This document shows, in pieces, positions 7,020 to 26,435 of a DNA stretch of 32,382 bases. Origin of the DNA: Azonexus sp. GTDB taxonomy: Bacteria; Pseudomonadota; Gammaproteobacteria; Burkholderiales; Rhodocyclaceae. Location: NCBI GenBank assembly GCA_030824535.1, contig JAVBXO010000209.1, forward strand, positions 1 to 32,382, in the 5' to 3' direction. A program made the position numbers and the translations under genes. The notes beneath the pieces were generated by a model that made no database searches, was not told the DNA's origin, and saw nothing but the letters and a program-made list of their open reading frames with translations. Positions within the stretch are counted from its first letter, which is position 1, and every line of letters begins with the position of its first letter.

Positions 7020-8843
7020 ATGTGTGGCATCGTCGCGGCAGCAGCTCAGTACAATATTGTCCCGGTCCTCATCGAAGGACTGATGCGTCTTGAATACCGG
7101 GGCTACGACTCGGCCGGTCTGGCGATCATCGGCGATGGCCAGATCGAACGCCTCCGTTCGGTCGGCCGCGTCGCCGAACTGGCCGCCGCGGCAGCGACGA
7201 CCACGGCGATCACCGGCATTGCCCACACCCGCTGGGCAACGCACGGCGTACCGTCGGAACGCAATGCCCACCCGCATGTTTCCGGGGCGATTGCCGTCGT
7301 GCATAACGGCATCATCGAGAATTACGAAAGCCTGCGCCGCGAACTGAGCGCCCAGGGCTATGTCTTCACCTCGGATACCGATACCGAGAGCATCGCCCAC
7401 CTTATTGAAGCCACGCTGCAGACCGAACCCGACCTGTTCAATGCTGTCCAGCGGGCCTGTCGCCGCCTGGTGGGGGCGTTCGCCATCGCCGTCATCGACC
7501 GCAGCCAGCCGGGGCGCATCATCGTCGCCCGCGAAGGCTCGCCGCTGCTGCTTGGCCTGTCGGAAAACGGCAATTACGCCGCCTCCGATGCCTCGGCCCT
7601 GCTGCAAGTCACGCGCAACATGGTCTATCTGGAAAATGGCGATATAGCCGAGTTGACCGCAGCAGCGGTCCGTATCGAACGCCTCGACGGCACCCCGGTC
7701 GAGCGTCCGGTGCATGTCTCGCAACTCTCCGCGGCTGCTGTCGAACTGGGCAATTATCAGCACTACATGCAAAAGGAAATCTTCGAGCAGCCGGATGCCC
7801 TGGCCAACACGCTGGAAATCGTCGGTGGCAGCAAGAGCATCCAGCCCGGCATTTTCGGCGCCGAAGCCGCACATCTGCTCGCCGATATCGACCACATCCT
7901 GATCCTCGCCTGCGGCACCAGCGCCCACTCCGGCCTGACCGCCCGCTACTGGCTCGAAGCCCTGGCCGGCATACCCTGCACCGTTGAAGTCGCCAGCGAA
8001 TACCGTTACCGCATCTCGGTGCCGAACCCGCGCCAACTGGTCGTCGCCATTTCGCAATCCGGCGAAACTGCCGACACGCTGGCGGCATTGCGCCACGCCA
8101 AATCGCTGGGCCAGATGAAGACCCTGGCCATCTGCAATGTTCCGGAATCGGCCATCGTCCGTGAATCGGCCCTGCGTTTCATCACCCGCGCCGGCCCGGA
8201 AATCGGCGTTGCCTCAACCAAGGCCTTCACCACCCAGCTCGCCGCACTCTTCCTGCTGACGCTGGTTGTCGCCAAGATCCGCAATCGCCTGAGTGCCGAG
8301 CAGGAAAGCAACTACATCGACCAGTTGCGCCACCTGCCGGTCGCGGTCAACAAGGTGCTGGCGCTGGAAGATGACATTCGCCAATGGGCTCAACGCTTCG
8401 CCGACAAACACCATGCCCTCTTCCTCGGCCGTGGCCGACATTATCCGATTGCCATGGAAGGGGCGCTGAAGCTCAAGGAAATCTCCTACATCCACGCCGA
8501 AGCCTACCCGGCCGGCGAGCTCAAGCATGGCCCGCTGGCGCTGGTCGATGCCAACATGCCGGTAATCTCGGTCGCGCCGCGCGATGACCTGCTGGAAAAG
8601 CTCAAGTCCAACCTGCAGGAAGTCCGCGCCCGAGGTGGCGAGCTGTATGTCTTCGCCGACGGCGACTCGGAAATCCCGGCCTCGGAAGGCGTGCACATCC
8701 TGCGCCTGCCCGAGCACTACGGCGAACTCTCGCCCATCCTGCACGTCGTGCCCCTGCAACTACTGTCCTACCACGTTGCCCTGGTCAAAGGCACCGACGT
8801 CGACAAACCACGCAATTTGGCAAAATCGGTCACCGTCGAATGA
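7020..8843 (+). CDS. glmS: Glutamine--fructose-6-phosphate aminotransferase (isomerizing)
   Basis: A 607-residue GlmS that makes glucosamine-6-phosphate from fructose-6-phosphate and glutamine, the entry step to peptidoglycan and LPS amino sugars. The N-terminal Ntn glutaminase domain starts [10 protein letters not shown] with the nucleophilic Cys2, then [19 protein letters not shown] and [10 protein letters not shown]. Two SIS sugar-isomerase domains follow, with [11 protein letters not shown] and [10 protein letters not shown] in the first and [19 protein letters not shown] in the second. The C-terminus [13 protein letters not shown] is the invariant end recognised by Tn7 TnsD. No glmS ribozyme or other riboswitch was seen in the 65-bp leader. 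The gene is intact, as expected because Tn7-type insertion falls after the stop codon. Confidence 0.97.
8807..8843 (+). other. attTn7 target-recognition segment in the glmS 3' end
   Basis: The last glmS codons (encoding [11 protein letters not shown]) include GGCAAAATCGGTCACCGTCG, closely matching the E. coli glmS end that TnsD binds (from memory of the attTn7 sequence). The transposon-like end starts 23 bp past the stop codon, the distance expected for Tn7-type insertion. Confidence 0.75.
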
Positions 8844-8866
8844 AAAAAGCCCGGAAAAATGAGTCC

Positions 8867-8927
8867 TGATGGGAAATAATAAAGTCTGTCGCGCGAGAAT
8901 AAAGTCTGTCGAACAATAGATATGAGA
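8867..8927 (+). mobile_element. Tn7R-like transposon end with TnsB-type sites
   Basis: The tip TGATGGGAAAT is followed by AATAAAGTCTGTCG (8878-8891) and a second identical copy (8898-8911), 20 bp apart. A weaker third unit GAACAATAGATATGAG follows (8911-8926). Tn7's right end has TGT, 11 bp, then AATAAAGTCTTAAACT sites in overlapping array, so the 11-bp offset, the core AATAAAGTCT and the close spacing all agree. The terminal trinucleotide is TGA here instead of TGT. TnsB binding is inferred by this analogy. Confidence 0.65.
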
Positions 8928-8934
8928 GGGAGCC

Positions 8935-8957
8935 CTGCGATAGCCGGGCTTTCATTT
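8935..8957 (+). terminator. Hairpin terminator after the glmS/transposon end
   Basis: AGCCCTGC-GATA-GCCGGGCT forms a stem with one T/C mismatch and is followed by TTCATTTT. CCGGGCTTT (8944-8952) is also an exact complement of AAAGCCCGG (8846-8854), directly after the glmS stop. It may be the original glmS terminator or an element-borne replacement. Confidence 0.5.
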
Positions 8958-9440: not shown

Positions 9441-12400
9441 TCAAGGCCTCATTCGGCCTTGGACGATGGCTAAGGCCATGCTATTGATATAGGAGAGTTC
9501 CGGAGCGTCTTCTCCCCTATACCGCTTCACGAATGTGCCAGCCTCTGTAAGCAACTTGAGCGCGCCGACCACATCTCCTTTCATGTGCAGAATTTCGGCC
9601 AGGTTGTAGAGCGCTTTTGGAAGATGGCCCTCTGCAAACCCTTCTATTGTCCTCAGCAGATTTACTGCTTTGGTCAGATGGCTCTTAGCCTCATCAAACT
9701 GATATCTTTCGAGTGCATTTGCCCCCCAGTTCGCGAGGGCAATCCCTCTGTCAAAGTCGCTTGCATCAGGGTTCGCCATAACCGCAGTGAAGGCTCTTTC
9801 GAAAAGAGTGCGGGCCTCTTGTTCGTCTTCGCCTGCCTCCATGATGGCATTCGCCAAATTGATAAGTGCAGTTATGACTTCCTTGTGATCGTCGTCTAGG
9901 TCACGCTCAACAATCTCAACGTTCTTGCGCAGGAGGGACACCGCTTCTGTCGGTGTTCCCTGGGCAATCAGTCCATGCGCTAGCGCGGTGCGGACCGGTA
10001 CGCAGAGATGTGATTCTGGACCATCGGACGCTTCGTACAGGCTGAGCGACTCTCGAAGAATCTGTAACCAGTCATCGGCAGCGTTAGCATCTCGCAGCAC
10101 TGTTCCTGCGTCCGCGAGTATCTGCGACTTCGACTGCTCGCGAACACCTTCGATGCGGTTGGCGCTTCGAACCGCATTTCGGGCCATAGCGATGGCGCTT
10201 TCACGATTGCCTTGAGCCAACGCAATCCCTGCCTTCTGCATGAGAATGTTTGCATCGGTGATCGGGTCGATCCAAGCGCCCGACGCCTCAGAATCCGGAA
10301 ACGCGTTCGATAAAACCTTGGATGCACGCTTCAGGTCGTTGATTTTGAGCGCGAGGTGAGTCTCTACCACTGCCAGGAAGTTTCGCAGCTCAAGATCGAA
10401 CTGGCGCTTGCAAGCTTCGCCCTGACTGGTCACAAGCCAATCGATAAATTCGAGCCCGCGCTCAGGTTGAAACTCCCCCAACGATCCGGCAAGCTTTGAG
10501 GCCATGCGCAATCCTTCAAAACTGAGTTCGAACCAGTCGGTGCGGGTCGAAACCAGGCTTGCGAGGATCGCCTCACCTTCAGGAACACGAGCGGTACGAA
10601 TCAGGGAAGCACCTTGATGCAACCTCAACGTCGCTTCGACGATCGTCTTCGGCGTGGCATCGGGCTCAAATGCCTCGTCAAGTGCAAACTCGACTGTGGA
10701 TAGGCAGTGTTCGTAGTCTCCAATGCCATACATCAGTTCAGCCGCGCGCGTTATCCCCGCGACGAAGTGGCCGAACGAGCCGGCGCCGCACTCAATGTCG
10801 GCCTGATTCGCGTTCGCATGCTCCAAATAAGCTTTGATCCTTAGTTCCAAGCCAAGCCATGCCGGGGCATGCATGTCGATCTCAGCGAGCGCTTGGTACC
10901 AGTCCGCGTTATGACCGGACAGGTCCATGGCGTAGTTTTGTAGCACGACCAAGTAGGAGATCAGGTACTCTTCAGCCCGAGTGTAGGACGTCTGCGCAAC
11001 TTCGTTGATCGCCTTCAGCAGATCTTCAAGCAATAGGTGGCAGGCACGGAAGTAGGAAGCCTTTCGCTGCGCGTCCCCCATGCACCATGAGCGCATAGAA
11101 CGCACCAGCTGGGAATGCACTCGGTAGCAGTCGCCGTCCACGTGCGATATGCAGTACCGTCGCTCCCCCACTACGCGCTGAAAGTGATGTGAACCGACTC
11201 CCGGTAGCAGGCCGACACGTAGAGCGGCCGCGAATTGCTTCTCCGAGAACTCACCGAAGATCGAGAACACTTCCAATAAGTCGCGCTCGGGGGCCGTTAG
11301 ACCACGGAGGAATCGATCGTACATGTCGGAGGCGCTGCGGCCGAGAAGATCGATCGTAAAGTTGTCGTGGTGTCGCGCAACTTGCTCGACAGCAACCGTC
11401 AATGCCAAAGCGTGAACCGTCGCAGACTCATCACTTTCCCGACATCCTGCCAAGATGTCTCGCCTATGCTGGCGAAGCAGCTTTGCGATCGCTTGGCCTT
11501 CTGGAGCCTCACACTGGTCGTACCAAACTTCAACCCGGGACACGAAGGTCTCAGCGGCGGCTTGCTGCAAGCCAAGCAAGTCCCTCTGTTCAATGAGTTC
11601 CGGCCAACCGCTGGACGATCCAGCAGCGTCGTACTTCGCCCAAGCGATTGGCGTTCGGGAGAAGACTACGCATCGGACGGCGCGGCCCACGGGGCTTAGG
11701 AGCAGATTTGCTAGGAGCTGTTGGATGGCCCACTCGGCGTTATGCTCCTTCGATTCGGACTGGAGCCGGTCAAAGCCGTCAATGAAGAGCGTAAGCTGGC
11801 TATGCCGCTCTTGAAGTTGGTGGATGATGTCCGCCGCTAGCGCCTTCGGAGCCAGTGGGTCCAACGCCGCCGGAGCAATCGTTGCCAAATCGATGTCCGC
11901 AAAGCGTTCGGCAAACCGATTGCGCTGGCGAGACGCCTTCAAGTACGTCGCGCCTTTCAGGAGAAGCTTGGCGGTCCCAAACCCCTCGGCCGCCTCGCCA
12001 AAGACCTCTAGCCAGTCGGCCTTGAAGAGCGCATCCTTCTCTTCAAGGGCCTCGCTGGTGTCCTTTCCCTGATCGAGGAGATCCTTGAACAGTGTGGACT
12101 GGGAGATCGCCGACTGCTCATTCAGCCTCGCAGCCCAAGTCGTGTACATCACAAGGAACAGCGGACATCTGAATCCCGCAGCCCGCAAGGCCGGATAGAG
12201 TGCTTTGCCAAAGAGCTCGAACAGCGGATACGCGGAGTAATACCGAGGAGAGTCGAAGTCCAGCGAACAAATGCCGGTCTTTCTTCGCACCTCCGGCGTC
12301 ATGCGTGCATGTGCGTTGGAGCAAAGGGCTGTCTTGCCGATGCCAGATACTCCGCAAAAGGCCAGCACTGGTGGCGTGGTTGGCCCTTCCACTGCTGAAT

Positions 12401-12500
12401 CGATGTGCCTCAGAATCAGGTCAAGCTCGTCCGAGCGCGCGACGAATAGTTTGTCCCACTCTGGAAGTAGGACCGAAGGGAGAAGCTGGCTGTCTGGCAT
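9441..12500 (-). CDS. STAND-type NTPase with TPR-like C-terminal repeats
   Basis: A 1019-residue P-loop ATPase of the STAND/NACHT-like type. Walker A is GVSGIGKTA at residues 50-58 and Walker B is LTLFIDGFDRL with Asp241. A sensor-1-like strand CVVFSRTP follows, then a winged-helix-like region (LTAPERDLLEVFSIFGEFSE, about 415-435). From about residue 520 to the end the protein is helical with TPR-like units, such as IALAQGNRESAIAMARNAV and ALYNLAEILHMKGDVVGAL. STAND proteins oligomerise when their repeats bind a trigger; many bacterial ones (Avs and relatives) sense phage proteins. No N-terminal effector domain is visible, since the P-loop starts at residue 50. The ATG at 12500 is preferred over an upstream TTG at 12554. 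A MalT-like signalling role is an alternative. Confidence 0.8.
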   Translation of the reverse strand: MPDSQLLPSVLLPEWDKLFVARSDELDLILRHIDSAVEGPTTPPVLAFCGVSGIGKTALCSNAHARMTPEVRRKTGICSLDFDSPRYYSAYPLFELFGKALYPALRAAGFRCPLFLVMYTTWAARLNEQSAISQSTLFKDLLDQGKDTSEALEEKDALFKADWLEVFGEAAEGFGTAKLLLKGATYLKASRQRNRFAERFADIDLATIAPAALDPLAPKALAADIIHQLQERHSQLTLFIDGFDRLQSESKEHNAEWAIQQLLANLLLSPVGRAVRCVVFSRTPIAWAKYDAAGSSSGWPELIEQRDLLGLQQAAAETFVSRVEVWYDQCEAPEGQAIAKLLRQHRRDILAGCRESDESATVHALALTVAVEQVARHHDNFTIDLLGRSASDMYDRFLRGLTAPERDLLEVFSIFGEFSEKQFAAALRVGLLPGVGSHHFQRVVGERRYCISHVDGDCYRVHSQLVRSMRSWCMGDAQRKASYFRACHLLLEDLLKAINEVAQTSYTRAEEYLISYLVVLQNYAMDLSGHNADWYQALAEIDMHAPAWLGLELRIKAYLEHANANQADIECGAGSFGHFVAGITRAAELMYGIGDYEHCLSTVEFALDEAFEPDATPKTIVEATLRLHQGASLIRTARVPEGEAILASLVSTRTDWFELSFEGLRMASKLAGSLGEFQPERGLEFIDWLVTSQGEACKRQFDLELRNFLAVVETHLALKINDLKRASKVLSNAFPDSEASGAWIDPITDANILMQKAGIALAQGNRESAIAMARNAVRSANRIEGVREQSKSQILADAGTVLRDANAADDWLQILRESLSLYEASDGPESHLCVPVRTALAHGLIAQGTPTEAVSLLRKNVEIVERDLDDDHKEVITALINLANAIMEAGEDEQEARTLFERAFTAVMANPDASDFDRGIALANWGANALERYQFDEAKSHLTKAVNLLRTIEGFAEGHLPKALYNLAEILHMKGDVVGALKLLTEAGTFVKRYRGEDAPELSYINSMALAIVQGRMRP

Positions 12501-12861
12501 GTCTGCGTAGTATTGATTTGTCGTTGGTTTGCAGAAAGTGAAAGCGTGCCACAACTTAACGTCACGGTCGATGCACCAAGCACAATTCTCGTTCGAGGAG
12601 CCGAACCTTTACTGCTTAATGGCTGCTTTGGGGTTGGCAGCAGCCAAGCGCTTTAGAAGGGGTGACGGTCTTCTTAGGCCGATCACCAGCCTGATGCCAA
12701 TTACAACAGGCGGCACGTCGGCCTTTGCTGACGTTCGCCGTCGCTGAAGGTAAAGACTGCTGACAAAAACAAAGCAGCCCTTCAATGTAAATACATAAGC
12801 CGGTGGCGATTTCCCACTTCCCATATGTGTCGGCCGCTGAAGATGCCATCGGACAGTTGTA
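12501..12861. other. Intergenic region between STAND gene and histidine kinase gene
   Basis: 361 bp without a convincing gene. It should hold the STAND promoter on the minus strand, but no clear -35/-10 pair stands out. It contains repeat copy 2 (12718-12738). Short open frames here are compositionally poor and lack start signals. Confidence 0.5.
12718..12738 (+). repeat. Dispersed repeat copy 2
   Basis: TCGGCCTTTGCTGACGTTCG matches the copy at 8972-8992 at 20 of 21 positions, in the same orientation. The two copies lie on either side of the STAND transcription unit. Confidence 0.55.
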
Positions 12862-15069
12862 TTAGATAACCAGGACTCCCTTCGAGAGGGGGAGAGTAAT
12901 GACGAAGGCGACGCCTCCCTCACGGTTTTGAGCCACAATATTGCCGCCCATTCCGCCAATCTGGATTTTGGCGGCATAAAGCCCCAACCCCATGTTCTCG
13001 GATGATGACCTGTCCGTGACCCCGAGTGAAAAGATAGCGACAGTGTCCTCGATGTGCTTTCCGTAATTGAGCACTTCGATTACCGCCATTTCGCCCTCGG
13101 CGCAAACGCTGATTTCGATGGTCGTCCCGTTAGCATAGCGCAACGCGTTATTCACAACGTGATCGAGGTGCTGATCGAGGGTGATTGGGTCATACACTGC
13201 AACGATTCCACTCGTCGGCCCGCTAGCCGTGACCGAATGTCTTTCTTCTCGTAGACGTTCAGTGAATTCAGCTACGTATTCCGCAATGTCCTGGTGGGAA
13301 ACGACAATTTCGCCGTTCTTCAACCCATCTTCCAGGCGGTTGGCTTCATAGAGCGCTTCTACGTTGCGCCGCATGCCTTCCAGGGCCCTACGATGCCGCT
13401 CAGACAGATCCTTGCTGGCCAACAACGTCCCGAGTGGCGATTTGATCCCGTGTCCGATCGCATGCAGATTGTGCTGCCGGATCTTCAGCAGTTCCAATTC
13501 CTTGGCGAACGCCTGTTGCCGCAGTAGCGTGTCACTGTCGACGCGACGCAGATGTCTGTTCAGGCGTTTTTGGTCCCGCTGAAACAGCACATGCATGACG
13601 CGTCCCAAGGTGCCGATCTGGTCCTTCTCGTGCGCGAACTGTTCCAGTCCGCCCAGTCGATGCGCCTTGGCAATCGAATGGGCTGTCCGGGTCAGCCGAT
13701 CAAGCTTGGACAACTTGACGATGGCAATCACGATCAGACATAGGATGGTGATCAGCAGGGCCACGATCCACATGAAGGCTCTTGCCGCGATATCCGGAAT
13801 CACGATGCGTTCTGCGGTCAAGGTTGCAGTCATGCGTGGCAAACCGTCGATGTCCTGCAGCTGGCTGACGTGGACCGGGGGCACGCCCCTGACTACAAGA
13901 CGGGCGATCCAGTTGCTGAGCGCTTGCCACTTCGTCGAGGGCGCTGAATCTTGATGTATCCCCAGCGCCGTCGAGTTCCATATGTCCGGGTCGGACGCCG
14001 AGCGATTCTCGGCCCTGACGATGAGCGCCGCGCGCGAAATAACGGAAGACATGTAGGCCTGTTCCAGCGACATGACTCCCTTTCCTATTTGGCCGGGTGT
14101 GAAGCCATAAGCTGACGATGGCTTGCCGACGGCCGGAGCAACTACGATCTCTGTCCCGATACGAAGGGCTTTGATGCCGCTCGATGGCCATGCCTCGCCA
14201 TCATTGAAGCCGGGGAGGATTCTCGAATCGATGCGGCCGAGGATGGTGACGACCGAGGATTCTCCGTCTTGGGCACGCTCATAAGCTTGAGCTTGCACAG
14301 CACGGTTTGGCTTTCCTCCATCACCGGTCAAGAACCCCGCCACCTCATGGAAGCCGTTCAGTTTCTTTCCCGGTGCGCGGCGACGGGTAATTGGCGTTGG
14401 GGGGGCCTCGAAGGCTAGGGTGATCGTCACCGTCCTCTGTCCATCAAACTGCAGGATGACGCGATCACTCTCAGCAAGCGGCTTCCCGGGGGAGTGGCGG
14501 GTAATCGGCGGCGATGGATAACGCAGGGCAAAGTAGACGAACCGGCCCGCAGGATCCAGCGGAAGCGCCGAAAAGCAAGCCTGAACGGTGTTGTTGGCTC
14601 CGGGACTCTGCTGAACACTGCCACGATTGGTTTCGATGGCGAATTCCGTTGAACAGCTGCGCGGCGGGGAGAACCGCAGTTCATCAGCCTGAAAGGAACG
14701 CTGGTTATCGCGCGTCAGGAAGTAGGAAAAAAACGGACGGCGGATGGTCATCACCTGCACTGAGCGGGCTGACCGGGTGTTTTCGGCAGGGTTTTCCAGC
14801 AGAGAGGAGCCGTCCGGCTCTCGCGTGCTCAGGAGGAATTCCGCCAGTTGACTGCGGAGTACCGACTCCTGGTGCATCTCATCCTTTGTCTTTGCCGCTC
14901 GAACGAAGTCGGCAATAGCCCATACCGTCAGGATCAGGAGGGCAATCCCCCCCAGGGCCATGGTCAGCGTAAAATTCCGAGCACTCCACCATTTCCGTAA
15001 GCGCTTTACGCGTGGATGCTCGCTAAACCTTCCAGCGATAGCCTTGGCGTGCGACAGCTTGAATTTCAT
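12862..15069 (-). CDS. Membrane-bound sensor histidine kinase
   Basis: A 735-residue kinase with TM1 at about 33-55 (LTMALGGIALLILTVWAIA), a large extracytoplasmic sensor region of about 370 residues, TM2 at about 425-450 (MWIVALLITILCLIVIAIV), a HAMP-like linker, a DHp helix and an HATPase domain. The H-box reads GHGIKSPLG with the phospho-accepting His near residue 540. The N-box is VVNNALRYA, G1 is VLNYGKH and G2 is NMGLGLYAAK. The residue after the His is Gly instead of the usual Glu/Asp, which may alter phosphatase or kinase balance. The ATG at 15069 is used; a GTG at 15090 is possible. It overlaps the response regulator gene by 47 bp, so the two form one operon. The stimulus is unknown; no matching family was recognised for the sensor domain. 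Confidence 0.85.
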   Translation of the reverse strand: MKFKLSHAKAIAGRFSEHPRVKRLRKWWSARNFTLTMALGGIALLILTVWAIADFVRAAKTKDEMHQESVLRSQLAEFLLSTREPDGSSLLENPAENTRSARSVQVMTIRRPFFSYFLTRDNQRSFQADELRFSPPRSCSTEFAIETNRGSVQQSPGANNTVQACFSALPLDPAGRFVYFALRYPSPPITRHSPGKPLAESDRVILQFDGQRTVTITLAFEAPPTPITRRRAPGKKLNGFHEVAGFLTGDGGKPNRAVQAQAYERAQDGESSVVTILGRIDSRILPGFNDGEAWPSSGIKALRIGTEIVVAPAVGKPSSAYGFTPGQIGKGVMSLEQAYMSSVISRAALIVRAENRSASDPDIWNSTALGIHQDSAPSTKWQALSNWIARLVVRGVPPVHVSQLQDIDGLPRMTATLTAERIVIPDIAARAFMWIVALLITILCLIVIAIVKLSKLDRLTRTAHSIAKAHRLGGLEQFAHEKDQIGTLGRVMHVLFQRDQKRLNRHLRRVDSDTLLRQQAFAKELELLKIRQHNLHAIGHGIKSPLGTLLASKDLSERHRRALEGMRRNVEALYEANRLEDGLKNGEIVVSHQDIAEYVAEFTERLREERHSVTASGPTSGIVAVYDPITLDQHLDHVVNNALRYANGTTIEISVCAEGEMAVIEVLNYGKHIEDTVAIFSLGVTDRSSSENMGLGLYAAKIQIGGMGGNIVAQNREGGVAFVITLPLSKGVLVI

Positions 15070-15715
15070 TCCAGTTCTGGTCGATGTCACAGAAAGCTCT
15101 TCGGATGTTCGAAAAATGGGTGGCCAACGCCGACGAACCTTGGGCTGACTTCAGGATGGCGGTCAAATCACGGTAGGGTACCGCGACACCCGGTTCCCGC
15201 GCGAGACGGTCTACCAGACTGCGTTGTGTGAGCGTCAAATTTACCCGCTTACCTTTCCAGAGCAGTTGCATCCTATCGTTGGGATCAACCTCAAGCCCTT
15301 CTGGCCACTCCATCGGAATCGCATCCCTATCCCGCTCCTTGGTCCACGTCAGTGCGTTCTCGACCTTGGTGATCAGGTCGAGCGGATTCACCGGCTTGCT
15401 AACGAAATCGTAACGGTTGAAATAGACAGCGACACTCTTCAGGGTGTCGTCAGCGGTCCCCGAGACGAATAGCGTAATGCAGCCCATTTCCTGAAGATCG
15501 CGCTGCAGGCCTAGCCCAGCGAATCGACCTCTTGCCGTAGGCGCCAGATTGATGTCGAGTAGTGCGATGTCATAGCGCTTTGTGAAAATCAGTGCACGCG
15601 CAGTTTCCTCGTCGCCCGCAGTGTCGATCTCGAGCCCTTGTATTTCCGCAAGGATGTCCTTCAGCTGCTGCTGAATGTCAGGCTCGTCATCGACGATCAA
15701 AACCTGGTTCTTCAT
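15023..15715 (-). CDS. Response regulator, receiver domain plus winged-helix-like C-terminus
   Basis: A 230-residue response regulator. The receiver domain has the acidic pair Asp9/Asp10 (LIVDDEP), phospho-acceptor Asp54 (ALLDINL), Ser85 (FVSGTA) and Lys107 (VSKPV). The C-terminal ~90 residues, ending SNIRRAFCDIDQNWNEIQAVARQGYRWKV cut at the usual GYRW/hairpin wing, resemble an OmpR/PhoB-type DNA-binding domain, although the recognition helix is atypical. It precedes and overlaps the kinase gene and starts on the minus strand just before a 520-bp spacer, so its own promoter faces the divergent CBASS promoter. Regulation of the adjacent CBASS genes is possible but unproven. Confidence 0.85.
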   Translation of the reverse strand: MKNQVLIVDDEPDIQQQLKDILAEIQGLEIDTAGDEETARALIFTKRYDIALLDINLAPTARGRFAGLGLQRDLQEMGCITLFVSGTADDTLKSVAVYFNRYDFVSKPVNPLDLITKVENALTWTKERDRDAIPMEWPEGLEVDPNDRMQLLWKGKRVNLTLTQRSLVDRLAREPGVAVPYRDLTAILKSAQGSSALATHFSNIRRAFCDIDQNWNEIQAVARQGYRWKV

Positions 15716-16235
15716 GGGGCCTCCCCGCTATCTACGCTCTCGTTTGCATCTTGGCGCATTCGCCGCCGCCTGTGCGTTCAGGATTCTTAATGGACGGACA
15801 CAAATATCAAGAAACGTTAATCGCTATCTGCGCGCATTGAAGCGCCCCGCCACCGCTTCACAAAGCTGAATCCGGGTATCAACCCTTCTTCATTGCATAA
15901 GTCAGACACTTGAGGCTATGGCGACATGGTGCGTACTAGCCCGGTCGGAACCGACTTTAGGAGTCTCATGTTGAACGCGTATAGCAGAGCAGTTTTGGAA
16001 CAGATTGGACGCCAGCTTGACCAGTCCATCTTTCCTGAAGTCCACAATGGCGGGCCGGTTTTGCCCGGTCCAACCGCCGTTGATTCCATCATGCCGGGGA
16101 AGGAGTTAGTTCGATTTGATTGTGCGTACATATACTATATGTAGTGTTTATGCGGCCATGTTGAACTATATGTAGTAGAAGAAAAATTTCTTTGCAGTTA
16201 AAGAAGAATGCCTGAAAGACCTAGGGAGATTGGCA
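15716..16235. other. Divergent intergenic region between two-component and CBASS operons
   Basis: 520 bp, lower in GC toward the CBASS side. It must contain the promoters for both flanking operons. Visible elements are a pair of ACTATATGTAGT repeats and a TATACT box close to the S-4TM start. An open frame at 15926-16144 was considered and not accepted, because its start context and composition are weak. Confidence 0.5.
16131..16176 (+). promoter_or_regulatory. Duplicated ACTATATGTAGT operator over the CBASS promoter
   Basis: ACTATATGTAGT occurs at 16134-16145 and again at 16165-16176, 31 bp apart (about three helical turns). Each copy is an ACTA/TAGT dyad with a 4-bp centre. The first overlaps a -10-like TATACT (16131-16136). 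This is the layout of a repressor or activator site bound by cooperating dimers. No dedicated CBASS regulator gene is adjacent on this strand; the response regulator at 15023-15715 or the XRE protein at 30978-31208 are candidates. Confidence 0.5.
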
Positions 16236-17159
16236 ATGAATGACATACCGGGCGACCAAAACCGTGACGATCGGCTCGACCTTTTGCGTGCACAACGTAC
16301 TTACTACGGTCGCGCTAAGCACTTGCAGACAGCGTTTCTCATCCTGGCGCTTGTCTTGCCTTGGGTTGGTGTATTTTGGAGTGTGGAGTACCCCGAAATT
16401 CGCCCCAAGGTGGCATTGGCCAGTATCGTGCTGCTGCTCCTTGAAATCGGCCTTGCAACAGGGCTTCAGCGCGATTGGGTCAAGACTGCAGCACGGATTC
16501 AAGAGCAGTTCGATACCGAAATATTTCAGCTTCCGTGGAACCAGTTAGTTGTTGGTTCGAAGGTGGCTCCAGAAATTATTCGCTCCGTGACGCGTAAACC
16601 CATCACGGCTAAGAAACGCAAAGACCTTGAGGATTGGTATGAGCACTGTGTCGGCTCTGTCCCTCTTCCTTTTGGTCGCCTTGTCTGCCAACGCACCAAT
16701 GTTGCCTACGACATGGAGGTCCGGAAAACTTTCGCTTGGGGTTTACTTATTACTGCAATCGGGATGGTCGTGTTCCTGATCTACCACCATGGCTTTCAGG
16801 AAGGCATTTCCTTTGCCGACTTGCTACTCACCGTCCTAGTCCCCTATATGCCGTTCGCTGCGTTCGTTCTTCGCGAATACCGTAGGCAGTACGATACCGT
16901 GGAGAGCCTTACCACGCTGAAGTCTGAAGTCGACAAGCTTTGGGCAAAGGCAGTAAAGATACCTGACGCCGCCGAACTGAGACAAGATTCTCGGAATCTT
17001 CAGGACGCAATCTATCGCAACCGTACGTCCAACCCGTTGGTGTACGACTGGGTCTATTGGTTGATGCGGAAACTCAACGAGGACTCTGCTCGACATGCGG
17101 TAGAGACCCTTGTCGCAGAAGTCAAGCGCAGCCTCACTCCGGCCAAGGAGGTTCAATGA
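16236..17159 (+). CDS. S-4TM family pore-forming-type CBASS effector
   Basis: A 307-residue membrane protein with four hydrophobic segments in two pairs: about 30-47 (FLILALVLPWVGVFW), 55-72 (VALASIVLLLLEIGLA), 168-188 (GLLITAIGMVVFLIYH) and 195-212 (FADLLLTVLVPYMPFAAF). The N-terminal QRTYYGRAKHL and the spacing match the SMODS-associated 4TM (S-4TM) family, whose members are thought to open the inner membrane when a cyclic nucleotide binds. A good Shine-Dalgarno (GGGAG, 16224-16228) supports the ATG at 16236 over an upstream TTG. Its stop overlaps the CD-NTase start (ATGA), so effector and cyclase are translationally coupled. Family call comes from architecture and context. Confidence 0.85.
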   Translation: MNDIPGDQNRDDRLDLLRAQRTYYGRAKHLQTAFLILALVLPWVGVFWSVEYPEIRPKVALASIVLLLLEIGLATGLQRDWVKTAARIQEQFDTEIFQLPWNQLVVGSKVAPEIIRSVTRKPITAKKRKDLEDWYEHCVGSVPLPFGRLVCQRTNVAYDMEVRKTFAWGLLITAIGMVVFLIYHHGFQEGISFADLLLTVLVPYMPFAAFVLREYRRQYDTVESLTTLKSEVDKLWAKAVKIPDAAELRQDSRNLQDAIYRNRTSNPLVYDWVYWLMRKLNEDSARHAVETLVAEVKRSLTPAKEVQ

Positions 17160-18601
17160 AACTGCTCAACCACTTCGAGACGTTCCTGGAAGACCACGTC
17201 AACCTTAACAATACTAGACTCAGACTGCTGACCGACAGCGTTGAGGCGGTAAAGAATGCGGTCAAGCAACTCGAATGGGGGCCGGAGATTGTCGACTTTG
17301 CTGAACAAGGCTCCTGGGCTCACGAGACCATTATCAAGCCTCAATCGGACAAGCCTTTTGATGCGGACTTACTTGTGTTCGTGAAAGCTGTGCCGGACTG
17401 GACGGCGAAGGACTACGTCAACAAACTGGTGACTGAACTAGATGCCCTTCCTGCATACAAGGAAAAAGTACGTCGCTTTTCCCATTGCGCCACTATCGAG
17501 TACGCCGGTGAACGAAAGATAGATATTGCCCCCTGTATTGTCGACCGGCTCTACCCTGGGACTTATGAAGTCTGCAACCGCGCTACGGATCAGTTCGAGC
17601 AATCCGAGCCGATTGCCTACACCGACTGGGTTAGGGGCAGGAATGCTATCGCCGGCGGCAATGACCTGAAGAAGGCTACGCGTTTGTTGAAGTACATGCG
17701 CGATATCAAAGGCAATTTCACCTGCCCTTCCTTCCTGCTCACAACTCTTCTCGGTTACCACGTCTACGATTTTGACCGCGATAGCGCTCAGTTTGCTGAC
17801 CTACCGACTACGCTCAAAACGTTGGTCGGTCGCTTGGATGACTGGCTACAGGCTCGCCCCGACGTGCCAGAGGTGGCCAATCCCGTACTCTACGGTGAAG
17901 ACCAGGCTTGCGGATGGGATCAATCCAAGTACGCGAATTTCCGCGACAAGGTGAACTTGTATCGTGGATGGATTGATGACGCGTACGACGAGGTTGATAA
18001 GGAAGAGTGCATTGGCAAGTGGCGTCGAGTGTTCGGCGATGGATTTGCAGAAGGCGAAACTAAGCGAGCCGCTGAGCAAGTCAGCGAAGCAGTTATGCGC
18101 ACAGATGGAACATCGCTAGTTCTTGGCAACCACTACGCGGACTTGGTCGCGATGGTCAAGGCACTCGGGGTCAAGGCTGTCCCACCACGCATCCACCGAC
18201 TGCCCCACATTGAGCGGCCGAAATGGCGCCGCGCGAGCGAGCAACTAACCGTTCGTGTGACAGCCGAGTTGAAAACCTCGAAAAACGGCCAGTTGATTCG
18301 CCAGATAAAGTCAGCAGAAACACTTCAGCAAGGTTACTCGGTAAAGTTTTGCGCGAAAACCGTACTCGGCGCTCCGTATCAGACAGATAACTACAGCATC
18401 AAGTGGCGCGTTACGAATACCGACAAGGCAGCGGTGGCCGCTAACCAACTGCGAGGTCAATTCTACCCATCCGATGAAGGTGCTTTTCGCAGCGAATCTT
18501 TGAGCTATCGCGGGGTGCACTTTGTCGAGGCCTTTGTCGTACGCAAGCGTGATCAGAGTCTAATGGGTCACTCTGAGCCCTTCTACGTCGTCATTGAATA
18601 A
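17156..18601 (+). CDS. CBASS CD-NTase (SMODS) with AGS-C sensor domain
   Basis: A 481-residue cyclic-oligonucleotide synthase. The polymerase-beta core shows GSWAHETI with Gly52-Ser53, the metal-binding pair Asp69/Asp71 (FDADLLV) and the third carboxylate Asp123 (RKIDIAP). About residues 190-280 form the C-terminal helical half of the SMODS domain. The last ~130 residues (IKWRVTNTD, QLRGQFYPSD, SLSYRGVHFVEAFV) form an AGS-C domain, a proposed ligand sensor attached to many SMODS enzymes. On phage infection such enzymes make cyclic di- or trinucleotides that activate the coupled effector, here the S-4TM protein. The product nucleotide cannot be deduced. The AGS-C tail is unlike the short Gly-ending tails of E1/E2-primed cyclases. 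Confidence 0.88.
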   Translation: MKLLNHFETFLEDHVNLNNTRLRLLTDSVEAVKNAVKQLEWGPEIVDFAEQGSWAHETIIKPQSDKPFDADLLVFVKAVPDWTAKDYVNKLVTELDALPAYKEKVRRFSHCATIEYAGERKIDIAPCIVDRLYPGTYEVCNRATDQFEQSEPIAYTDWVRGRNAIAGGNDLKKATRLLKYMRDIKGNFTCPSFLLTTLLGYHVYDFDRDSAQFADLPTTLKTLVGRLDDWLQARPDVPEVANPVLYGEDQACGWDQSKYANFRDKVNLYRGWIDDAYDEVDKEECIGKWRRVFGDGFAEGETKRAAEQVSEAVMRTDGTSLVLGNHYADLVAMVKALGVKAVPPRIHRLPHIERPKWRRASEQLTVRVTAELKTSKNGQLIRQIKSAETLQQGYSVKFCAKTVLGAPYQTDNYSIKWRVTNTDKAAVAANQLRGQFYPSDEGAFRSESLSYRGVHFVEAFVVRKRDQSLMGHSEPFYVVIE

Positions 18602-18624
18602 CTCAATGGAATAATGGCCATATC

Positions 18625-19881
18625 ATGCTTCGTGAAAAATTATTTCATCCCTCCAGAGGTAGCCTTGCTTCCCAGGCATCAGCCCGGTTTACCTATCTAG
18701 CGGAGGTCGTTGCTAAGGCGTTTGAACCGACGCAGACGCAGTTGGAGGATTTGGAGCGTGCCTACAATGCTACTGGCGAATACCTAGCTGCTTGTCCAGA
18801 GTTTGATGGGTTGCTCACCCAGGTTCACGCCCAAGGCTCTCGTCAGATGGGAACCATTATTCGCCCGATGAACTCAAGCCGCGAAGGGTTCGACATTGAC
18901 CTAGTTGCGAAGTTGTCGACGAATGCAATTGCACTCTATAGCGGTAGCCAAGGTGCATCTCTCCTGCTTAGCCATCTTAAAACTGCCCTCACGCGATACG
19001 CAAAGAGCCATGAACTGAAAATCGAACCTTGGGATCGCTGCGTGACCCTTGTGTACGCAGGGGGAATGCGTGCCGACTTCGTTCCCATCATTGAGGATCC
19101 CCGATTCTCGCTCTCTTACGGCGAGCATCACGGCTTGATTCCTGACAGAAAGCTCCAAAGCTATATGTCGACCAATCCCAAGGGCTACTGCTTAGGATTC
19201 GACAAGGTGGCCAAAATTCAGGCCAATTTCACAAGTCAGTTTGCGTTGGACTCCATTGCCACCGAAGCAATGAAGGCGGAACTGGTACCTCTCCCGGACG
19301 CGGCGGAAGTATTGGGGCGGCTGTTGTGCCGCTTCGTGCAATTAGCCAAGGTTCATCGCAACTTCTCATTCGCTGATGCAAATGAGGCATTTGTACCAAC
19401 GTCAGTCTTCCTTACGTCGCTCATTGCTCTCGCTTACGAACGACTGGCGCCACACCCTCACGATGGGCCACTTGAGTTGTTCGTGGATATCATTGATGTG
19501 CTGCCCAATATGTTTGAGCGCCATAGCTTTGGAAATGGCCGTCAACATTGGATTCTGAGAAATCCCTTCGCCCTCAATGATAATCTCGCCGACTCCATGA
19601 ATACGCCTGAGCGGCAAGAGGCATTTAACCAGTGGCATGAAAAGCTGAAGAGCGATCTAAAACAACTGGTCTATGCAATTGACGATATGTCTAACTCCGA
19701 CGGTGTGCTTGATGTCGTCAAGAAGTCGTTCGGGCCGAGGGCGTCCATGGCAATGGTTGAGCACAACGCTAAAACTCGGGAGGCTCGCCGTGCAAACGGT
19801 AGAGCCAACTATTTCGTAGGCGGAGCAGCAGCTTCAATTAGCTCTGTGTCACGCTCGCACACCTTCTTTGGCGACCACTGA
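18625..19881 (+). CDS. Second CD-NTase-like nucleotidyltransferase
   Basis: A 418-residue nucleotidyltransferase of the same superfamily as its neighbour but not a close copy. The core is QGSRQMGTIIRP with Gly71-Ser72, then FDIDLV (Asp90/Asp92) and MRADFVP (Asp151), so all catalytic positions are present. It lacks an AGS-C domain; its C-terminus is a flexible tail (GGAAASISSVSRSH then TFFGDH). CD-NTases that are substrates of CBASS E2 enzymes usually have such a tail ending at or near Gly; here Gly is third from the end. It starts 23 bp after the first cyclase and its stop overlaps the E2 start (TGATG), so the strongest coupling is to the E2 gene. It could form a type II-short CBASS core. Product unknown. 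Confidence 0.82.
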   Translation: MLREKLFHPSRGSLASQASARFTYLAEVVAKAFEPTQTQLEDLERAYNATGEYLAACPEFDGLLTQVHAQGSRQMGTIIRPMNSSREGFDIDLVAKLSTNAIALYSGSQGASLLLSHLKTALTRYAKSHELKIEPWDRCVTLVYAGGMRADFVPIIEDPRFSLSYGEHHGLIPDRKLQSYMSTNPKGYCLGFDKVAKIQANFTSQFALDSIATEAMKAELVPLPDAAEVLGRLLCRFVQLAKVHRNFSFADANEAFVPTSVFLTSLIALAYERLAPHPHDGPLELFVDIIDVLPNMFERHSFGNGRQHWILRNPFALNDNLADSMNTPERQEAFNQWHEKLKSDLKQLVYAIDDMSNSDGVLDVVKKSFGPRASMAMVEHNAKTREARRANGRANYFVGGAAASISSVSRSHTFFGDH

Positions 19882-20345
19882 TGGCGATACCGTGTCGCCG
19901 CCTTTCATTGGCTCAGCGTGGCTCGGAGCTACAGGCGTTGCGGTGGCCAAACTCCAAGATGGAGTATTGGCAAGGCCGGGAAATGCGTTTTTCCTTTAGT
20001 ATGGCACCGACGCCGATGTCTAGAAGCTACCGGTGCTTGTTAAAGGTGCCAAGGTCTGGTTTCCCTGAAATGATCGTCCTCGAACCGGATTTGAAGCTGC
20101 TTGCCGGTGGCCGGCCGATTCCGCACGTGTACCCGTATAACAACAAAGGCACAAAGCTCTGCCTCTGGCTCCCAGGTTCGGGCGAGTGGAATTCAAACAT
20201 GCGATTCGAGGAGACGTACCTCTCGTGGACTGCGGAGTGGCTCGATTACTTTGAAGAGTGGCTCGAAACGGACAAGTGGGCAGGAGGCGGTGCTCATCCC
20301 GAGCCACATTCGAGCAAAAAGAATCTTGGAAAGAGGTCGCTTTAA
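19881..20345 (+). CDS. E2-like (prokaryotic ubiquitin-conjugating type) CBASS protein
   Basis: A 154-residue protein matching stand-alone E2-like proteins of CBASS loci. The pattern is PHVYPYNNKG followed by LCLWLP with the presumed catalytic Cys94, then WTAEWLDYFEEWLETDKWAGGGAHP, the conserved C-terminal helix and GGGxHP end. No E1 (ThiF) or JAB peptidase gene is present, which is the 'type II short' layout, where an E2 alone attaches or primes the cyclase. It is translationally coupled to the second CD-NTase (start and stop share a base). Which of the two upstream cyclases it modifies is unknown. The assignment rests on the Cys and WL..YE.W..T..W.GGG..H pattern recalled from known loci. Confidence 0.72.
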   Translation: MAIPCRRLSLAQRGSELQALRWPNSKMEYWQGREMRFSFSMAPTPMSRSYRCLLKVPRSGFPEMIVLEPDLKLLAGGRPIPHVYPYNNKGTKLCLWLPGSGEWNSNMRFEETYLSWTAEWLDYFEEWLETDKWAGGGAHPEPHSSKKNLGKRSL

Positions 20346-20735
20346 GTGTTTATCGAGCTGCGAAGCTTGACCATCCTTTTTGTAGTGCGACGAATCGAAA
20401 ACCATGAATGTCGATATCTGCGTCCCTGAGCGGTGCAATCATGGTGCTTCGGCGGTAAGAACCGGTCAAAAAGGAATCGAGACAGTGAATCAGTCTCGAA
20501 AGCTTCGCGCATGTGCTTTTACCGGGTTGAGACGGTCGTCGCCTGTAAGTCTGTGATTTCCAGATTTGACGTCAATTTCTGAAAGCTCTGATAGATGGTT
20601 GTCGGCATGAATGCCCCCAATATTGGATGTCGATAGCCTCATATTATTCTTGTGGAATTATACTTACAGATGCAGGCAAACCTATAACTTCGACATATGT
20701 GTCATGGAATTTTCCTGAGGACAGGCTGGCGGTTT
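20346..20735. other. Intergenic region after the E2-like gene
   Basis: 390 bp, AT-richer, without a convincing gene. TCGAGAC/GTCTCGA (20477-20483 and 20493-20499) is a perfect 7-bp inverted repeat with a 9-nt loop. TATACT at 20659-20664 could be a -10 box for the next gene, although no matching -35 was found. Confidence 0.45.
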
Positions 20736-21512
20736 ATGGCTACCCAACCCCAACGCAGCGACCCAATTAGTGAAAAATACTTTAAGCCTCTTGAGCGGGC
20801 TGACGCGGCTGGAGACTGGCTTTTCGTCGGCGCCGCAGTTGTATCGATCATCACAGTATTGATCGAAAAAGGCGATTTACCCCGCGCCTACAATCTGATT
20901 CAGGGCACTTTCGTTGTACTCGTCCTGAGTCTCTTCGTGGCCGGACAGATCAGTCGCCTTTATTTTTCCCCCCGCGCCGAAGACAAACGCCGAGAAGAGT
21001 TCCTATCCAACGCGCTCAGTGTCAATCTGACCCATGAGCGTACCATTGGCTATTACAACAACAGTGAGATTGACCCAATCCGGAAAGTGGGTCTCAATAT
21101 CCTGGAAAACACGCATTTCACGAAGGCAATTGCCCTTGAGATGGTGAAAAGAGAGCGGCTGGTGAGTGGCACTTACCTTGCCATCTGGCTTGTTCTCCTG
21201 CTCAACAGGGATACCGACCTTGGCTTAATTTCAGCGGCCGCGCAGGCTGTATTCGGCGAACAGATTATTTCCCGCTGGCTACGCTTGGAATGGCTACGCA
21301 TCCGGTCGGAAAAAATCTTCCGGGAGTTGCATAGAGCTTTTCTGTCAAATCCGGCACCGCATGTTTTGGGTGCCCAAATCTTGGAAGCGTTTTCGACCTA
21401 CGAGGCAACGAAGTCGAGCGCTAGCATCGTGCTATCGACCAGCAGCTTCGACCGTCTCAACCCTTCGCTGACCCAAGAATGGGAGGACATCAAGGCATCG
21501 CTCACTACGTAG
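20736..21512 (+). CDS. Four-TM membrane protein with S-4TM-like architecture
   Basis: A 258-residue membrane protein with two pairs of hydrophobic segments: about 29-46 (FVGAAVVSIITVLIEKG), 54-72 (IQGTFVVLVLSLFVAGQ), 140-157 (VSGTYLAIWLVLLLN) and 163-178 (LGLISAAAQAVFG). A charged, conserved-looking stretch separates the pairs (RAEDKRREEFLSN, GYYNNSEIDPIRKVGLNILENTHFTK). This is the same topology as the S-4TM effector at 16236, though sequence identity by eye is low. It lies 390 bp after the E2 gene with its own promoter region. I chose the ATG at 20736; an upstream ATG at 20697 is possible. It could be a second CBASS effector or an independent defence protein; no direct evidence decides. Confidence 0.65.
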   Translation: MATQPQRSDPISEKYFKPLERADAAGDWLFVGAAVVSIITVLIEKGDLPRAYNLIQGTFVVLVLSLFVAGQISRLYFSPRAEDKRREEFLSNALSVNLTHERTIGYYNNSEIDPIRKVGLNILENTHFTKAIALEMVKRERLVSGTYLAIWLVLLLNRDTDLGLISAAAQAVFGEQIISRWLRLEWLRIRSEKIFRELHRAFLSNPAPHVLGAQILEAFSTYEATKSSASIVLSTSSFDRLNPSLTQEWEDIKASLTT

Positions 21513-23172: not shown

Positions 23173-23300
23173 TCGTACCAAGGAAGACCCTTAGATTTAC
23201 TTTAGTGATTCGAATCTACTCGCGCCACCTGCGCGAGTCAAGGGCCTTCCTTTTCCTATCGATATTTCAGACCGGAGATCCCGGTCGGAAAGGAACTGGC

Positions 23301-24287
23301 ATGCCCAAAGCCATCAAACTGACCCTGGCGCGCCTGCAGGAAGTCCTGCGCCGTCAGGACCCGCCACAATGGGGCAAACCATACGACCCCGCGATTCGCG
23401 CAACGCGGGAGGAGGCGCCCTCCAGAAGTCGGCCAGCACAAGTCTGGTCCGAACGCTTAGATCGCTACTGCCATACCTTGTCCCTAGTAGAGCAGAAAGT
23501 GCTGTTACTGGCTCTATTCAATCCACATCTGTTTGAACTCCAGGAGCAGCGGATGCTCACAACAGAGCCAAGACCACATCCGCTGACAGGACACAGTCTG
23601 GCCATGGGACTGGAGCTACCCGGCTTACGCGGCATAATTGATGTGTGCGAGCGACTGAACATGATTGATCGGCTCCCGTGGATCCTCATCGATCACCCTG
23701 ATAGTACCGACCGGGTTCCCGTACCAGCCCCCTTCATTGGCGACTTCCTCTTATTCCTGAGCGATGATAACGGTCCGTATTGCGTGAACTGGACAGTCAA
23801 GGCTTCGAAGGAGGATTTTCTGCGCCGCCCGATTGACCAACGCCCGGCTCGCCGCGCCGAAGTGCAAGAGGCTGCTGTGCGTGCTCGGCATGCCATTGAG
23901 GAGCGCTACTATTTGGACGCGTGCATTCCCACCATCCGCATTGTGGATTCCGATATCCCCGAGCTGTTTGCGCAAAACCTCCGGAGCCTGATTCTAGTAC
24001 AACACCGCGCCGCTGGCGTCGATGCCTCAATCTACGCAGAGGTCTGCGATCGCTTGCGGGCGTCGCTGCAGACGGAGCAGCCGCCGCTCGAAATCCTGCT
24101 CTCCGTCATTCATCGACACGATCTGGACTTGGAAACGGCTAAAGCCCTGTTTTTCCGGTCGCTCTGGCGACGCGACGTACGCCCGGAGTTGACGGAGGAG
24201 GTCATCTTTGTTGACCGCCCATTACGGCCGGAGCGCCATGATCCGCTTCAGGTCTACGCGAGTTGGTTTGCGCGGCAGCAGGCATGA
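23301..24287 (+). CDS. tnsA: Tn7-like transposase subunit TnsA (endonuclease)
   Basis: A 328-residue restriction-endonuclease-fold subunit that cuts the 5' ends of the transposon. It aligns by eye with Tn7 TnsA: HTLSLVEQKVLLLALFNPHLFELQEQ corresponds to the LSDLELAVF...DIREQ block. That gives catalytic Glu64, then Asp148 (FIGDFLLFL) and Lys167 (WTVKASKED). Tn7 has Gln two residues before this Lys; here it is Thr165. The C-terminal region (ETAKALFFRSLWRRDV) is the wHTH-like part that contacts TnsC in Tn7. The ATG at 23301 has a good ribosome site (GGAAAGGA, 23287-23294); an upstream frame start at 23205 looks spurious. tnsB follows after 9 bp. Intact catalytic residues imply cut-and-paste transposition. 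Confidence 0.9.
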   Translation: MPKAIKLTLARLQEVLRRQDPPQWGKPYDPAIRATREEAPSRSRPAQVWSERLDRYCHTLSLVEQKVLLLALFNPHLFELQEQRMLTTEPRPHPLTGHSLAMGLELPGLRGIIDVCERLNMIDRLPWILIDHPDSTDRVPVPAPFIGDFLLFLSDDNGPYCVNWTVKASKEDFLRRPIDQRPARRAEVQEAAVRARHAIEERYYLDACIPTIRIVDSDIPELFAQNLRSLILVQHRAAGVDASIYAEVCDRLRASLQTEQPPLEILLSVIHRHDLDLETAKALFFRSLWRRDVRPELTEEVIFVDRPLRPERHDPLQVYASWFARQQA

Positions 24288-24296
24288 GGAGCGACC

Positions 24297-26435
24297 ATGC
24301 GTACCGGTACTCAGTTATGTGCCCCTGAGGGCTTTGATGCCCTTTGCAAGGGTGTACGGTATCACCTGCTTCGCAGCGACCCGGCCCGGCAGCGCGTTTT
24401 GCTGGTGGAATTCCAGCGGAAACACCAACGCAGTGGTGAAGGCCAAAGGAGTAGTGCCGACACCGGCACCAAAGGGGGCGCATCCGGGGGGCATTCGGGA
24501 GTCTCTGATCAGGGCGCGGGTGGAACATATGCCAGCTACCGGCCTGTTCTGCATTTCTTGTCTCGCCATCAATTCGAGCAGGCCCTGGAGCGTGGGCTGA
24601 TTTTCGCGTGCGAACCACAGGACGAGCTTCCCCCTTGGCTCGCCGGCGTGACCATTGTGGAACTCCAAGCGTACGCAGAACTTCGCGTGGGCCAGAAGCG
24701 CAGCCACGCTGCGCGTATCGACCAGATTTTGGTGCATCTATGGCCGCTGGTGCAGAACCTGGACCAGATTCTGGGTGCCGAGTCTCCCGACACACTCATC
24801 AACGCACACGCGAGAGCGTGCAAGCCTCCACAGCATGAGACGCGCTTTAGGACTGCGTTCTATGCGTACGTGTGCTTCGGTTGCAATCGGTGGGCTTTGC
24901 ACTATCCGGTGCATCATATTGGTCACTGGGACCGGATGGGGCGCGAGCGGAAGTTTGGCCGGCCATCAAGGCTCAATGGTGCCCATCACGGCCACGGTTC
25001 CAACGACCAGGAGATGATTAATCGGATTCTGGAGGGGTACCGAAAGTATGCCGGTCCGGGGCAACACCTGAGCGCAATCTATCGCCGCACCCTGCGCACC
25101 GTGTTCGGCTGTCTGGTGCAAACCGACCCCCAGGGCAGAAAGTACTTCGTACACCCCGCCGGCAAGGCATTTCCGACCTTTGGTCAGTTCGCCTACCGGG
25201 TCGGTCAGGCCTTTCCACTGGAGATGCGCCAAGTCTACAAGTATGGTCATACCCGGGTCAGGACCCGGCTGCAGCATTCGCTCGGTCGCTTTGCTGAGAG
25301 TGTGGGCAACCTAATGGAACGGACCGAGCAGGATGCCTATTGCTGTGATCGGGTAGCCAAAGGTTACTTGCCAGACAGCCACCTGCCGGCACTCTGGGTT
25401 GTACGCACGCGCTGCATTGCATCTGGGATGCTCGTCGGGATTGGATTCTCCATCGGTGCAGAGGCGGCGTCAGCGTATCGCCTGGCCAAGTTCTGCGAAG
25501 CCATCGACAAGGTGAAGTTCTGTAGCCTGTTCGGCTTGCAGATTAAGGAAGGCGACTGGCCGAGTGTCGGCGTGTCACCCCATGTGATCCATGACCGAGG
25601 TCCTGGCGCCACAGCCAGAGCCGAATCGGCCAATCCCGTTCTAAGGCCCGTCATCAAGGAATCTGCTCCCAGTTACTCTGGCCAATCCAAAGCATCAATC
25701 GAAACGACCCACCCAAAAGCGATCAAGCTCGAAGGAAAACCCCACTATCTCGAGACACGCCTTTCAATTACCCAATTGGCGGCCCAGGAAATCATCAGGA
25801 CGATCGCCGACAATCACAGCATCGATGTGGCGGACCGGCTCAACAACGATGCTGTCGAGGCTGGTGTGTTTCCGACCCCTGTTGCGTTGTGGAACTACCT
25901 TGATCGTCGAGGACGCAACCACGCCATCTCAATGCGCTTCGAAGAGGCAGTCCGGGCATACTTGACGCCAATTGAGCTGACCGTTCGGGACGATGCGGTG
26001 TACTTCAAGGAAATGCGCTTTGACTCCACGGCCCTACAGCGGTCGGAGGCACTGCAGAAGGCACACACCTGCGGAACCTACCGGCTAGGCGGCTACATGT
26101 TGGATGTCTGCGTGCGCCATCTGTGGGTGGAGGCGGGCACGGATCTGATCGAGGTGGATGCGATGCTGGCCATTCGGGATGGGGAGGAACAACTCTACAT
26201 CTCGGTGGTGGAACTTGAACAGCTTGATCGCTTGCGACGCGACGGGAAACTGGAGCTCAAATACCACCAGCTTGCTGCGCGATCCGAGTACGAGGCCACA
26301 TTCGAGCAGCATATGGGACAACAGTTCGACCAGTGTATCGTCAAGGGTGGAAGAAACAAGAGATCGAAGGCCGCTTCAGTAGAAGAACGCCAGCAAATCA
26401 TGCAATACCTGCGAGCAAAAGGAGGAAAGCGATGA
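24297..26435 (+). CDS. tnsB: Tn7-like transposase subunit TnsB (DDE integrase)
   Basis: A 712-residue rve-fold transposase that binds the end repeats and joins 3' ends to target DNA. The DDE triad is visible at Asp346 (TEQDAYCCDR), Asp433 (VIHDRGPGA) and Glu469 (ASIETTHPK). N-terminal HTH domains occupy about 120-330, including SYRPVLHFLSRHQFEQAL and the AGPGQHLSAIYRRTL helix. The C-terminal beta-barrel and tail (RFDSTALQRSEALQKA, LEQLDRLRRDG, YEATFEQHM) should contact TnsC. A glycine-rich stretch at about 46-78 is unusual and may be a linker or mark compensated frameshifts. The stop overlaps the tnsC start (ATGA). TnsB is separate from TnsA here, as in Tn7. Confidence 0.93.
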   Translation: MRTGTQLCAPEGFDALCKGVRYHLLRSDPARQRVLLVEFQRKHQRSGEGQRSSADTGTKGGASGGHSGVSDQGAGGTYASYRPVLHFLSRHQFEQALERGLIFACEPQDELPPWLAGVTIVELQAYAELRVGQKRSHAARIDQILVHLWPLVQNLDQILGAESPDTLINAHARACKPPQHETRFRTAFYAYVCFGCNRWALHYPVHHIGHWDRMGRERKFGRPSRLNGAHHGHGSNDQEMINRILEGYRKYAGPGQHLSAIYRRTLRTVFGCLVQTDPQGRKYFVHPAGKAFPTFGQFAYRVGQAFPLEMRQVYKYGHTRVRTRLQHSLGRFAESVGNLMERTEQDAYCCDRVAKGYLPDSHLPALWVVRTRCIASGMLVGIGFSIGAEAASAYRLAKFCEAIDKVKFCSLFGLQIKEGDWPSVGVSPHVIHDRGPGATARAESANPVLRPVIKESAPSYSGQSKASIETTHPKAIKLEGKPHYLETRLSITQLAAQEIIRTIADNHSIDVADRLNNDAVEAGVFPTPVALWNYLDRRGRNHAISMRFEEAVRAYLTPIELTVRDDAVYFKEMRFDSTALQRSEALQKAHTCGTYRLGGYMLDVCVRHLWVEAGTDLIEVDAMLAIRDGEEQLYISVVELEQLDRLRRDGKLELKYHQLAARSEYEATFEQHMGQQFDQCIVKGGRNKRSKAASVEERQQIMQYLRAKGGKR

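Follow-up and report, generated by a model that had tools for sequence, protein, structure and literature searches.

Right end beside glmS

The window, by which we mean the whole 32,382-nucleotide stretch analysed here, is the entire contig C416 of a fragmented Azonexus MAG (451 contigs, 88% complete). It encodes glmS, downstream of which lies a short array of repeats with the following features:

7020-8843, + strand: glmS (open reading frame), whose 3' end is an attTn7-type target
8867-8877, + strand: terminal 11 bp of the right end, TGATGGGAAAT, placed by the TG that precedes the first unit by 11 bp at 51 of the 53 places with the same double unit
8878-8891, + strand: first TnsB-type unit, AATAAAGTCTGTCG, identified by sequence and predicted to be bound
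8898-8911, + strand: second TnsB-type unit, AATAAAGTCTGTCG, likewise
8931-8950, + strand: weak hairpin AGCCC...GGGCT inside the right end, identified by sequence

The glmS stop codon TGA occupies 8841-8843 and is separated by 23 bp from the TGA tip at 8867-8869. The two exact units follow in a 20-bp register, the first beginning 11 bp inside the tip and 37 bp from the last glmS codon. An earlier note on this DNA had described these paired units, their spacing and offset, the TGA tip and the distance past glmS, and the sequence is exactly so. With up to 3 mismatches allowed, there are no further copies of AATAAAGTCTGTCG across the window. The same note was also correct in seeing no mirrored end, which the window, as a complete contig, does not reach.

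At the DNA level the 3' end of glmS is 78-87% identical to the glmS 3' ends of nearly all of 77 genomes of the same genus. The comparison with element-free relatives that had been proposed shows apaH or other sequence after glmS, without homology across position 8867. We also considered apaH as a guide to empty sites; it is unusable as such a marker because in one genome (G000) it lies elsewhere, beside a secretion operon and without a transposon end. A terminator scan detected none in the window's right end. Across the family, a hairpin with a T-run is found just inside 12 of 48 right ends, against 0-3 in control stretches; strong terminator-like hairpins in this position (L062, L073, L078, L102, L111 and others) come mainly from Rhodocyclaceae elements.

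Transposition genes and cargo

The earlier note had recognised the right end but had not reported the tns genes, which lie at 23-31 kb:

23205-24287, + strand: tnsA-like endonuclease (family profile against Tn7 TnsA structures, E 9e-9; start codon uncertain)
24297-26435, + strand: tnsB-like DDE transposase (family profile matches only Tn7 TnsB, 7pik, E 6e-7)
26333-27901, + strand: tnsC-like AAA+ ATPase (profile, AAA domain and operon position; start uncertain)
27771-29663, + strand: tnsD (Pfam TnsD 1e-24, TniQ 2e-15; Tn7 TnsD profile E 8e-23; start uncertain)
29669-30733, - strand: second, short tniQ (Pfam TniQ 6e-15)

Neither TnsA nor TnsB has any Pfam or NCBIfam match. Their assignment comes from profiles that combine them with relatives found in a few genomes; run against solved structures, these match only Tn7 TnsA and Tn7 TnsB, respectively. 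Residues D346, D433 and E469 of the window's TnsB align to the conserved D, D and E stretches. The TnsC profile retrieves the TnsC proteins of Tn6677 (2e-4) and Tn7 (5e-4), along with unrelated P-loop proteins. The tnsD product is presumably the selector of the glmS target. The short tniQ is convergent with tnsD, and the related elements of three other genomes (G052, G084 and G049) likewise carry TnsD together with a shorter second TniQ.

Between the right end and tnsA the window encodes:

9441-12554, - strand: NACHT/TPR ATPase (Pfam)
12862-15090, - strand: histidine kinase (Pfam)
15023-15715, - strand: response regulator (Pfam)
16230-18601, + strand: CBASS operon 1, with a 4TM effector and a cyclase (Pfam S_4TM 4.5e-84, SMODS 1.6e-35; PADLOC)
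18625-21512, + strand: CBASS operon 2, with a cyclase, an E2 and a 4TM effector (PADLOC Cyclase 1.5e-173, E2 4.2e-48, Effector 2.1e-99)

Two CBASS operons are thus found side by side within one element (window 16230-21512).

The same end in other genomes

We scanned about 85,000 GTDB genomes with the pattern AATAAAGTCTGTCG-N6-AATWAAGTCTGTCG, leaving the tip unspecified, and obtained matches in 49 stretches from Pseudomonas, Alcaligenaceae, Rhodocyclaceae, Gallionella and others. Including the window and one further genome (G041), 53 places were available for counting tips. In 51 of these a TG stands exactly 11 bp upstream of the first unit, and base conservation begins abruptly at this -11 position, with none just outside it. 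The tip reads TGA in 44 of the 53 places and TGT in 6. Given this preponderance, the lineage normally has TGA at its tip; the earlier remark that the window has TGA instead of TGT was correct, but it describes no anomaly.

At about 20 of these loci the distance past glmS is constant at 22-25 bp; roughly a dozen others stand a few bp past amtB. The end is linked to tns genes elsewhere too: in G041 it stands immediately before tnsA, and in several Pseudomonas elements tnsA follows at a distance of about 4-5 kb. In most of the glmS-linked loci 36-39 bp separate the last glmS codon from the first unit. Complete relatives possess mirrored left ends, which in Pseudomonas comprise three units with spacings of 52-53 and 59 bp.

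Several individual loci show further arrangements. In G052 (L058, 8364-8413) the TGA tips of two AATTAAGTCTGTCG ends abut with zero bases between them, while in G003 (L060, 14416) a lone AATTAAGTCTGTCG unit stands right after glmS without a second one, possibly as a leftover solo end. A second glmS 3' tail is seen about 90 bp downstream of glmS in L015, L024, L029 and L041, with a hairpin-like stretch between. On contig C81 a stretch of about 540 bp beside amtB (L009, 3816-4412) combines one exact unit with decayed right-end-like sequences; these are remnants of elements at the second landing site.

Length of the target duplication

For 13 complete elements both ends could be read, and we looked for a repeat directly outside TGA...TCA. 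An exact 4-bp target duplication is present in 11 of the 13 and a 5-bp one in none; the remaining two border on other transposon ends or on sequence resembling them. None of the other tip offsets or duplication lengths comes close to 4 bp at the tips in these elements. A 5-bp duplication with shifted tips was also tried and rejected, the best variant accounting for 5 of 13 and being put down to a chance T. As a control, Tn7 in R721 was read in this way and returned its 5-bp duplication, CGCAC. Two genomes, G077 and G078, serve as mutual empty sites: GGAGGCCGTAGACC versus GGAGGCCTTAGACC, with one 4-bp copy removed. For the Pseudomonas elements a search of 80 genomes gave no match to a direct empty site, and this pair takes its place.

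Judged from these flanks, the lineage duplicates 4 bp of its target, unlike the 5 bp that a 2024 review describes as characteristic of Tn7 and all its relatives. We found no report of 4-bp duplications in Tn7-like elements in the literature searched, a search that had most subscription journals outside its reach. The earlier note had expected AGTCC (8862-8866) as the duplication in the window. Its location holds but its length does not, since the lineage value is 4 bp and the corresponding sequence GTCC (8863-8866). The window's own duplication fits either 4 bp (GTCC) or 5 bp (AGTCC, with the left tip read one base shorter), and taken alone it is ambiguous because AGTCC fits both sides once the left tip is shortened.

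A left end on contig C445 and a probable nested insertion

A search for an inverted end with the flank of the right end, which had been suggested at the outset, led to a left-type end on a separate contig of the same genome, C445. It contains three units spaced 60 and 52 bp apart. Directly outside its tip come GTCC, then GTGA and then two units of another right end, and this GTCC equals the 4 bp preceding the window's right end. Joining the flanks of the window and C445 with one GTCC gives TGAGTCCGTGA-AATAAAGTTGGTCG-N6-AATAAAGTTGGTCG, in which TGAGTCCGTGA is a full 11-bp TGA tip, 16 bp past glmS. The same type of end stands 17 bp past glmS, with the tip TGACTAGAGGG, in an independent genome of the same family (G269). 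Two further features of the window are defined by this comparison:

8863-8866, + strand: GTCC, probable 4-bp target-site duplication (C445 flank and the family 4-bp rule)
8860-8866, + strand: TGAGTCC, probably the opening 7 bp of a right tip, TGAGTCCGTGA, that belonged to an older element (B) and was interrupted (flank joining)

As joining the flanks restores an 11-bp TGA tip, an older element probably already occupied glmS, and the window's element would have split the tip of this resident by landing at its fixed distance of 23 bp. This older element carries Shango defence genes; on C445, SngA, SngB and SngC (L010, 599-6770) adjoin the right end of the TTGGTCG type.

The C445 left end, which lies on a contig not joined to the window, is probably that of the window's element; the window's end and C445 have no common 15-mers. 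The units of the C445 end read TTGGTCG, TTCGTCG and TGTGTCG, as against the CTGTCG type in the window, and because of this difference the end could belong to another element at the same position. This would be a further element, inserted between the two at the same spot, with GTCC being its own duplication. Repeated insertion at one spot does yield identical duplications, as seen in L097 and L109. However, ends of the TTGGTCG type stand 16-17 bp past glmS rather than 23, and the only other left end of the CTGTCG type in the assembly is the amtB-linked one on C81, so that we regard a further element as the less likely option.

Nature of the element

Taken together, these observations indicate that the feature is very probably the glmS-proximal right end of a divergent, cut-and-paste Tn7-like transposon with phage-defence cargo. 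The end is real, of the TnsB type and adjacent to glmS, which supports its earlier interpretation as a Tn7R-like end. Its association with the distant tns genes deserves comment, as the window could instead hold two stacked elements, with an orphan right end at 8867 and tns genes contributed by a second element or a remnant. Tandem arrays are common in the family (L071, L097, L109, G104 and G105), and tnsA adjoins the right end in G041, whereas 14 kb separate the two in the window. Against this, no second end, left or right, occurs between 8912 and 23205 with up to 3 mismatches, and an Azospira element (G084) has a layout like that of the window, with more than 12 kb of cargo between the right end and the tns genes; stacking is thus improbable. 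That the repeats are a chance or otherwise unrelated intergenic occurrence can be dismissed for practical purposes: although about 1.6 matches to a single unit with 3 mismatches are expected by chance per window, both units here are exact, and the double unit recurs across many genera with TG 11 bp upstream, beside glmS or amtB, with mirrored ends and target duplications.

For the single Tn7-like element that we favor, the mode of action can be proposed by analogy with Tn7. TnsB would bind both units and cut at the TGA tip, while TnsA would cut the other strand; TnsD would read the end of glmS, and TnsC would direct insertion to a point 23 bp beyond the stop. From the combined evidence we infer transposition of the window's element. 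More broadly, it likely belongs to a deep Tn7-like lineage, with TnsA and TnsB proteins that Pfam models do not detect, a 4-bp stagger, TGA tips and both glmS and amtB as sites, one member of which probably disrupted the outermost base pairs of an element that already resided at glmS.

How far apart a transposase places its two strand-transfer sites shows in the length of the target duplication. Finding a 4-bp stagger within the Tn7 group contradicts the general claim of 5 bp for every relative, and the lineage offers a natural comparison for what sets the strand-transfer distance in TnsB, a question that matters for CRISPR-associated insertion tools. The probable nested insertion, in turn, suggests that the insertion point stays tied to glmS, also where the site already holds an element.

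Comparison with known systems

The components of a Tn7-like element are all found here: a TnsA-type endonuclease, a TnsB-type DDE transposase, a TnsC AAA+ regulator and a TniQ/TnsD selector. So are arrays of TnsB sites at both ends: close-set next to the att site, as in the window, and spaced out at the far end, as seen in relatives and, for the window's own left end, through the probable link to C445. Recurrent insertion past glmS, 23 bp from the stop in the window, is a trait of Tn7 proper, with recognition by TnsD being putative. In place of the typical TGT/ACA tip there is TGA in the window and in most of the places counted above; TGT/ACA tips are typical but not universal, with exceptions in some CASTs (PMC11406308).

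Counted from the TGT tip, the Tn7R of plasmid R721 has AATAAAGTCT cores at +11 and +31 and two more sites at +52 and +72. In its core, its offset and its spacing the window's end therefore agrees with Tn7, as had been claimed. Close-set right-end sites, the tnsA-tnsB-tnsC-tnsD set and landing at glmS are common to both (see PMC11406308). Tn7, however, has a TGT tip, a 5-bp duplication and four right-end units, whereas the window's lineage has TGA and 4 bp, and the window itself two recognised units and a second TniQ. Their TnsA and TnsB proteins are related at the profile level only. General scans of the window proteins gave no match to Tn7 TnsE, the distal part of the element lying outside the window.

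A TnsD accompanied by a second TniQ, as here, is also found in the type I-B1, I-B2 and I-D CASTs and in CMGI-E of Cupriavidus metallidurans CH34 (PMC11406308, PMC3384475). In distinction to these two-TniQ elements, the window's lineage targets glmS or amtB and makes a 4-bp duplication. Unlike in CASTs, no cas-like match was seen among the window proteins scanned with Pfam and PADLOC, which again cover the element without its distal part. The Tn7-like transposons of Benler et al. 2021 (PMC8649781) likewise carry defence cargo between their ends; the comparison extends to cargo, as a term search of that text for glmS, TSD and tip sequences returned nothing. The end itself is real and Tn7-like, and the lineage to which it belongs departs from Tn7 in its tip and in the length of its duplication.
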